A stretch of DNA of 64,000 nt, from assembly GCF_027942865.1 (NCBI RefSeq), contig NC_134522.1, positions 8,955,849-9,019,848 of the forward strand. Direction: 5' to 3'. This document shows, piece after piece, positions 12,052-25,000 of this stretch; positions within the stretch are counted from its first letter, which is position 1; each line of letters begins with the position of its first letter. This stretch comes from Odontesthes bonariensis. Lineage: Eukaryota > Chordata > Actinopteri > Atheriniformes > Atherinopsidae. A program made the position numbers and the translations under genes. Under the pieces are notes generated by a model. The model was given only the letters and a program-made list of their open reading frames with translations. It searched no databases and was not told the DNA's origin.

Positions 12052-12294
12052 GATGTACCTAACTTGTTCTGTAAGTTCATCTAAGTTCTTATTAAAACGT
12101 TCGTCAATGCCAAATTGCAGTCCCGCCTCCTCAATCTCGTTTAAAAAAAACACCTCATTGTTCAAAATCTAACTTTGTTTCACTATTAATTCTATTTTAC
12201 AGTGTGTTGCTATACAGTATTAACTCCTTACATTATTAAATATCTAAAGGGTACCAGAGCTTGAAGAGCTTTGGTCTTTTATATCACTGGATAA

Positions 12295-12840
12295 AGGACT
12301 GGAGGCTGTCACTGATTCATTTTGCTTCATTTAGCACACCTCCTTCTTTTGGTAAAATAACATCTTCAATACTCATATCATATATACATATTTGGTATTG
12401 CCGGATTCAGCACAACCTCACCTTTCATTTGAGCTATGATATGTGTTGCTATGATCATCATGAGCAAAGCAACCATAAAGGAAATGATAACATTCTCCAT
12501 AGACATATTTTTTCCTCATTGTCCGCCTATTTTAGGCACGTGTTTATTGGTCCACATCTTCTTCATACATCAAGATATCAACATCCAAAAGCTGCAGTGA
12601 CTCCCTGGCCACAACTGTGCAAAGTCCCAAAGCTCTCAGGGCTTCTGTTAATTTTCTGCATGACTTTTGAGGTCTTAACACCTATACGGAGAGGTTACCT
12701 TAGGTGCCTTAGTATTAAAATAATTTTGGCCAAGAATCCATTTCATGCATGGGAGACCTTTGAGATGAGGAAAAACATTGTTGGGTTTGGTTCTACCTCC
12801 GGTAGGGGTATCTCAACATTTTAGGGCCATTGTCACTAGG
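12295..12840 (+). repeat. Right inverted arm of the long-arm transposon
   Basis: Homologous in inverted orientation to 8808-9415, and ending at CCATTGTCACTAG. The 187-codon open frame at 12261-12824 is incidental to the arm: it reads through the same block that gives a different protein in the left arm. This arm lies inside the first unit of the 5-kb tandem duplication. Confidence 0.75.
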
Positions 12841-22000: not shown

Positions 22001-25000
22001 TTATTCTTTTAAATGACATTACAAGTTTGAACACTGTAACCAACTAATGGCAAACATGAACTTGCTTTGTACATTTTGCTACACGGTTAAATGAATGTTC
22101 TCAGGGACGATTCTTTGATTCAACAGAGAGAGATTCATGTGCAGACCCTGCTGACTGGACCTGAACTAAAGTGAAGTGTAGAGAACAGATTTTCTATGCA
22201 TTCCCGGAGTTCCTCTGGTTAAACATTTGCATGGAAGCTGAAATCATCTGTTACACCACCGCTGTACGCTTGGTTTAATGACGGATTATCTTATCATTTT
22301 CATTTTATAGCCTGATCTGTAAATGAACCATTGTCTAAGGCCTGAGAACAGTAACACGCACATGATAAGAATGATCAGGGCAATGCGGAGTGTCTTCTTT
22401 AAAAAGAGGCCTACGGGCTGCCTGCAGCTGCAGAAAGATCAACAATTACCACAGTGTCCTGTGACGGGCCACTTCTGTGAAGTCACATGAAGTTGACTGG
22501 AGTAAATAATTTGCATCAAGTGGATATTATTATAATTTTTTTTATGCCACCGTCCTTGTGCCAGTCTGCAGACACAGGTGGGAAATCGAGTTGTTGCCCC
22601 TCAGCATGTCTGAGGCCGAGGCGCTGTGGACTGTGTGAGAAAACATTCAGCAGCTTCTAATTTTCTCTGTGGGAGATCATTGCACGTGTAAAAGCATAGC
22701 AGAACTCACTGCACTGTCTTTAAGTTACTCGGACGGTGATTTTATCAGATGAGGCTGCGGTCGTAACATCCGAACTTTATTGGAGCAAAGCGACAGTGTG
22801 GAAATGTTTAGACCGATCCCTCACAGTGTCTGACACGTTTAGCTGTCTGACAAAAGAAATAGAAAAACATGTGAACGAGAGCAGCTTTGCTGGGAAATCT
22901 GCTGTTTATACAATAATATAGAAAGAGCTGGAACTTTGGAGCACATGTGGAGCGCTCTGGCCCACCTTTTGGTTTGGTCGGACTAACAGGTTTAAATGCA
23001 TTTTAAAAGTCTGGTTTTGGTGGACTAATTAAAGGTTGGCATTTATCAAATCCATCGTGAGCGCAGGAAAGATGAAATCGCCACGACAGGTCTGAGGCCG
23101 TGTACGCACTTTTCCATTTTGACTTGCGGTGACTGCAACACAGCAGCGTCACTAGTGCGTGCTCAGGAGTCGCAACAAATCCCTAGGTTAAAATTACAGA
23201 CTTATCACTTCAAAGAAGGTCCATGTTTTAATTGACTTCAACATAAATATAAACATAAACGCAAATTAAATAAATTAAACAAGTACAACTCCGTAATTGG
23301 AAGAGTGATGGCTCATTATTCAACCGCGCACCCTCACACCGAACAGGAGAGGCGCTTTAACACTGCGCATTCGCGCACGCGTGCCACTGTGGAGAGGTGT
23401 ATAGGGCTCCTAAAGCTGGATCTGTCTCTCGGCTGCGGGGGGAACCCTATCCGCCCGAAAAGGTATGCAATATTATTATTGCATGCGGGGATCTCCATAA
23501 CATTGCCCAAAAAAATGGAGTGCCATTTCCAGATATACATCCAGAGGACCCCGTACCCAGAGATCCCTTCCACCTGCCTGCACAGCCAAGAGCGCTCAGG
23601 AGGAGAGAGGAACTTATTCAGCGATTCTGACTTTTGGTAAGCATTCTGTTATTCAAGGAAAAAAGAAAGGAGAACAACGATTTCTTTCAGCATTCATTCT
23701 GTGACTTCAGTGTTTCATTTATGTCTTTCAATGTACTGTCGATAGATTGCATGGTGTGTGTTAAAGCCATCATCCACTTCACGATCTCTGTTTGTCTTTA
23801 GGACCCCTGTGGTCAACACGGCTGGCTGGTGTGACGCTGCAGACCGGGGGGCAGAGGCAGAGGCTTCGGATGTTGTGGCATCCGAATGAGTGGCGTATTC
23901 GTCGCGCGGGTCGCCCGGATGCCACTTCGGATTTATCTGTGAATGAAAAATATTAGTTTGATTAGGAACCTCATTTGTGTTGAATATTAAAGCAACTGTG
24001 TTATTTAAACGTCTTGGGTGTGCAGTCATTCTTACCATTCTCGAGCTCTAGCATGGGCGCATCAGTGTCAAGTTTCCCTGGCACGCCCGATGAGGACGTA
24101 GCTCCGATCACGCCAGCCACCCTCTCCTCCAAGGCACTCAAATCCAAACCTGGATCGGACCCTCTCCTCTTTTTTTGGCCAATTTCATATCGGACCACTT
24201 CTTCCTGATCTTATTGGAGAAAAAGTAAAACATCGTTCAATTTTAGATTTCATTTAATCTGGAGTTTATCACAGTTTATTGACCATCACAGTAGGGGAAA
24301 ATACATAACTCGTCCGGTCTGCGATTTACATCGCCAACGCTGTTGACAGCCGTCCCAGCTGTCAACAGTGTTGACAGCGTTTCTTTGCCGCCTTCGTCTA
24401 TCCATGTCGCAAACTCTAGAGGTGTGGCCTCTCAACCCCCTTTTGTAGAAGGCGTGGTTAGGATCATTATGATGGATTTCAGCCGCCGGATTTATCAACA
24501 GCCGCTCGGTTTTAGGATGGGATTGGTGTGGTACGCATGTTCTGTAAATCTCACTTGAGCCTCTGCGTACGACGAGTTCTCCGCTCATATCAACGATGCT
24601 TTCTACGACGGCTTGATAAATGAGGCCCATGTGTGTCAGATTGTGCCTCTGGACTTTTGCCTCCGGCAGTGACGTGGAAGGGATGGATCTATGTGAAAAC
24701 AGAAGACTTATTGAGATACTGATTAGCAGTGGCTCTCACCTGTCACCCAAATGGGCCTCAATGCACAACTTTATATAATAACAGTGCACTCAAAAGCCAC
24801 CAAGCCCACCAACTAAAGGTCACTTGCATCATGAAGTGTAACATAGTAGTTAAAGTTTGAAGGGATGTTTTCTTTTGTATTCAGCTGTCAGTGATTTAGG
24901 ATCAAGCTGGACTCCCAGGTCAGTTTGTGTCTCACTTTCCCCCTCGTGTCCCCCTTTTCTTTGTTCCCACCTTTGCAGCTGAACTGAGGAAGTTGGAGGG

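Follow-up and report, generated by a model that had tools for sequence, protein, structure and literature searches.

The 5′ region and first three exons of mocs1 are present twice in tandem in the stretch of DNA analysed here (the window; 64 kb, C22:8955849-9019848, within the 37.7-Mb contig C22 of a 945-Mb assembly of 187 contigs), and the evidence inclines somewhat towards this being a real, very young 5-kb tandem duplication produced by end joining. Such a duplication might be fixed or, as the likelier state, still polymorphic. This leaning comes from three observations: the join is free of gaps and of overlap, no SNPs separate the two units, and the left breakpoint falls within a transposon whose other copies, in 9 of 9 compared, run through this point unbroken. 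The original prediction had offered either a very recent duplication or a false one made by the assembler; this was the right pair of options, although the version in which two haplotypes were placed side by side is weakened by the finding of 0 substitutions in 4986 bases. The two forms of false duplication considered below, taken together, come close to an even chance. Whether real or false, the duplication is probably of little consequence, since the second copy leads into a whole gene. The coordinates of all the elements involved are given in Table 1.

Table 1. Duplicated units, mocs1 exons and associated elements (positions are those of the window)
Feature	Position	Strand	Description
Transposon-like element	8805..12839	.	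Long inverted arms (~8805-9390, ~12320-12839); contains the left breakpoint, 12163
Unit A	12163..17163	+	5001 bp: 3′ end of the transposon-like element, further repeat, mocs1 5′ region, exons 1-3, part of intron 3; self-alignment, 0 mismatches vs unit B
mocs1 exon 1 (coding part), copy A	13894..14097	+	204 bp
mocs1 exon 2, copy A	15011..15122	+	112 bp
C-tract, unit A	15134..15148	+	15 C, a little past the donor site at the end of exon 2 (15122)
mocs1 exon 3, copy A	16733..16900	+	168 bp
Single extra A at join	17164..17164	.	Base outside both units; microhomology 0 bp
Unit B	17165..22180	+	5016 bp, runs on into the remaining mocs1; self-alignment
mocs1 exon 1 (coding part), copy B	18896..19099	+	204 bp
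mocs1 exon 2, copy B	20013..20124	+	112 bp
C-tract, unit B	20136..20165	+	22 C + T + 7 C; sole difference between units
mocs1 exon 3, copy B	21750..21917	+	168 bp
mocs1 exons 4-9, single copy	24979..28363	+	24979-25143, 26004-26065, 27091-27202, 27291-27403, 27552-27662, 28243-28363; splice sites, frame, TIGR02666
Alternative 3′ exon	28469..28524	+	Closes MOCS1A with ...ILIGG and stop
mocs1 exon 10	28620..29672	+	MoaC-like (MOCS1B) part; frame, TIGR00581

When the window was compared with itself by BLAST, units A and B aligned over 5016 columns with 0 mismatches and a single gap opening of 15 gap bases. The 31-mers shared by the two units keep an offset of 5002 upstream of the C-tract and of 5017 downstream of it, and the near-perfect 5-kb tandem duplication originally predicted was thus confirmed. 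Over 5 kb, an alignment free of substitutions is far more than chance would give. The two units carry the same sequence in direct orientation and are adjacent; the sequence to the left of unit A does not resemble the end of the unit, nor does that to the right of unit B resemble its start; the join is thus without microhomology. An 18-base string spanning the join occurs only once in the window, and the 113.8-kb stretch containing the window has no N bases, and hence no assembly gap between the units. The C-tract lengths of 15 and 30 bp given in the original prediction were correct, but the second tract is not pure C, being interrupted by a T. No difference between the units falls in exons 1-3. 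The identity claimed for all open frames does not extend, however, to the antisense frame that crosses the C-tract, whose glycine run differs (94 aa versus 99 aa).

The gene could be followed to its end in the single-copy sequence beyond unit B. Spliced exons 1-9 matched the NCBIfam moaA model (TIGR02666) with an E value of 1.3e-113 (379 bits; cut-off 284), and the last exon matched moaC (TIGR00581) with an E value of 3.2e-55 (186 bits; cut-off 141.5), so that the name mocs1, assigned beforehand, is upheld by both halves. AG and GT are present at the splice sites of exons 4-9. The splice forms are predictions from sequence: splicing of exon 8 to exon 10 would be in frame and yield an open frame of 699 residues, in which the MoaC half is open, while the predicted MOCS1A ends in -GG, with its stop at 28524. 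A C-terminal double glycine is a feature of MOCS1A. In each unit the ATG is preceded by 1.7 kb, of which about the first kb is repetitive (46 partial matches in the assembly were listed, two of them being the units themselves); the promoter proper is therefore likely to sit within the final few hundred bases before the ATG. A mild increase in G+C and CpG is seen from near position 13800; judging from its position, a putative promoter would be included in the duplicated unit. Human MOCS1 is described as having ten exons and two products that arise by alternative splicing in exon 9 (PMC9607355). The gene in the window also has ten exons, with a MoaA-type first part and a MoaC-type last exon, and a predicted alternative splicing near exon 9 would likewise give two products; in this comparison, the doubling of the first three exons is found in this assembly only.

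The two breakpoints lie in different surroundings. The right one falls within intron 3 of mocs1, while the left one is contained in the transposon-like element. At nine other loci of the assembly, a match spans the position corresponding to 12163, and the element was unbroken there in all nine copies compared. On this evidence the left flank is the ancestral arrangement, while the interruption of the element at 17165 (the join) is derived. The idea that 12163 might mark a transposon end was rejected, as a query spanning this position showed the element to continue through it. Of four open frames of the element that were compared with Pfam, none had a match at E 0.01. Three of its relatives (in C2, C12 and C23) contain ∼3.2 kb extra at the point equivalent to ∼12280, so that the copy in the window looks internally shortened. 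At C22:20943069-20946619, two copies of the end of this element were found in opposite orientation, ∼1 kb apart, in a head-to-head-like arrangement.

If the duplication is real, broken ends, either of sister chromatids or of a broken replication fork, would have been joined by a route that needs no homology (non-homologous end joining or a replication-based repair), and the length of the C-tract would then have been altered by slippage. A join with neither an N gap nor shared sequence, and with one added base, fits end joining better than a misjoin based on overlap. Poor gap filling or a chimeric read would be compatible with such a join too, and the added base could be a consensus error. It also speaks against a real event that the only difference between the units sits in a homopolymer, where sequencing errors gather as well, and that this difference (15 bases plus a T) is large for DNA that is otherwise identical. 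A real duplication would have a divergence with a 95% upper bound of 0.06%. With 2e-9 to 1e-8 mutations per site in each generation, it would be younger than roughly 30 000-150 000 generations. A literature search covering the titles and abstract openings of the papers listed found no report of this mocs1 duplication.

The event, a young partial-gene tandem duplication, is of an ordinary kind. In favour of a real event, a survey of breakpoints (PMC4056370) reported inserted or deleted bases without microhomology for 143 of 644 fly CNVs and, in humans, for 81 of 302 and for 153 of 743. The duplication found here shares with such young, non-homologous tandem CNVs the direct, adjacent units, the lack of microhomology and the base added at the join. 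It differs in size, since the fly CNVs of that survey are mostly far smaller than 5 kb, and in being known from the sequence of one assembly; tandem duplications there accounted for only 2 of 50 insertions. A stickleback preprint on copy number (PMC12776057) provides further background.

A false homotype duplication, in which one locus was placed twice, through the assembler, through gap filling or through a read that was chimeric or in error, and the difficult C-tract was resolved into two consensus versions, is distinctly possible, if well short of an even chance. In its favour, the units differ in a homopolymer tract only, and errors of this type do occur. In this case, as in the false homotype and heterotype duplications described by Ko et al. 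(2022; PMC9516828), a portion of a gene is present on a single scaffold in nearly identical copies. The signs of false duplication listed in that study are half or very low read depth, gaps between the copies, discordant read pairs and single-copy k-mers. The gap sign is absent here; however, some false copies in the same study were joined through incorrect gap filling, so that exceptions are allowed for. The surroundings of the locus agree with an error in that they give no visible indication of recurrent duplication: the 113.8 kb around the window yielded no further direct repeat with a length of 150 bp or more and an identity of 97% or more. A 50-kb sample of C2 was free of N and, at thresholds of 150 bp and 90% identity, of direct repeats; both samples are too small to provide a rate. 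Against this explanation, the join has neither an N nor any shared sequence that could have served as an overlap. In addition, homotype errors were reported to make up 0.1% or less of three VGP assemblies, though 0.4-2.7% of older ones (PMC9516828).

A false heterotype duplication, with both haplotypes placed in series, is improbable. The two versions of the C-tract could be alleles, and in the assemblies analysed by Ko et al. (PMC9516828) heterotype false duplications are more common than homotype ones. Under a Poisson model, however, the chance that 4986 bases contain no SNP is 8% if the local heterozygosity is taken as 0.05%, falling to 0.7% for 0.1% and to 2e-5 for 0.22%. This explanation would require an animal that is inbred, or homozygous in this region. 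Recombination between repeats (NAHR), or carriage of the segment by a transposon, is scarcely credible: the left breakpoint does fall in a repeated element, but the two breakpoints have no homology to each other, for which reason NAHR was rejected, the element ends near 12839 rather than at 12163, the right breakpoint lies in an intron of mocs1, and the mocs1 part of the unit (13700-17164) has no other strong match. When this part was used as a query against the 945-Mb assembly, the four matches listed were units A and B and two of ∼100 bases at 73-74% identity; no third or unplaced copy was found.

Regarding function, the original prediction had held that a duplicated promoter on a gene essential for sulfite detoxification would be notable if real. 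Functional alarm is unwarranted: unit B together with exons 4-10 reads as a complete gene that requires nothing from unit A. As unit B alone would give a normal gene, neither a loss nor a gain of function follows, and unit A would be at most a spare or interfering promoter. Under the preferred reading of a real duplication, the gene would run from unit B. Were the promoter of unit A active as well, the RNAs produced would depend on exon phase. Exon 1 ends in phase 0 and exons 2 and 3 in phase 1; exon 1 of unit B, being a first exon, should lack an acceptor site. Splicing of exon 3 of unit A to exon 2 of unit B is predicted to cause a frameshift, with a stop after 166 residues. Exon skipping could instead join exon 3 of unit A to exon 4, in frame, to give the normal protein of 699 residues, or to exon 3 of unit B, also in frame, to give a protein of 755 residues with exon 3 doubled. 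Interference by the promoter of unit A is possible as well. It is conceivable, though unlikely, that the duplication is real and polymorphic, that mocs1 consequently has two promoters and two first exons, and that the level or form of MOCS1 varies between animals, with molybdenum cofactor supply and sulfite tolerance segregating; the variation would then arise through either of the two in-frame splices or through promoter interference.

A natural tandem duplication is reported in the human gene, where a preprint (PMC13419748; HPRC2) describes one of ∼92-152 bp in the 3′UTR of MOCS1, with raised expression in 10 heterozygotes compared with 196 reference homozygotes. The two cases share the gene and the type of event, but here 5 kb are involved, comprising the 5′ region and exons 1-3. 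If real, the duplication would offer a clean, young example of how part of an essential metabolic gene is duplicated in tandem, with the survival of the splice products governed by exon phase. If it is false, annotation could turn the artefact into a partial or chimeric mocs1 paralogue, and the locus should therefore be flagged before claims on copy number are made from this assembly.

Several other features were observed in the window. An inverted repeat is formed by 2770-3060 and 3148-3440 (293 columns, 98% identity, 87 bases apart), and a retrotransposon reverse transcriptase fragment is present at 31595-32413 on the minus strand (RVT_1, 1.3e-29). Positions 33808-42669 hold a tandem array of interferon-inducible GTPase (IRG/IIGP) genes, with PF05049 matches at 36133-36834 (8.4e-63) and 36966-37652 (5.5e-29), a second set at 37964-41219 that is 82-91% similar, and a further fragment at 42515-42669. 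A weak FH2 match on the minus strand at 48475-48909 (E 5e-4; 19.7 bits, under the Pfam cut-off of 34.8) may represent the end of a daam-type formin gene.
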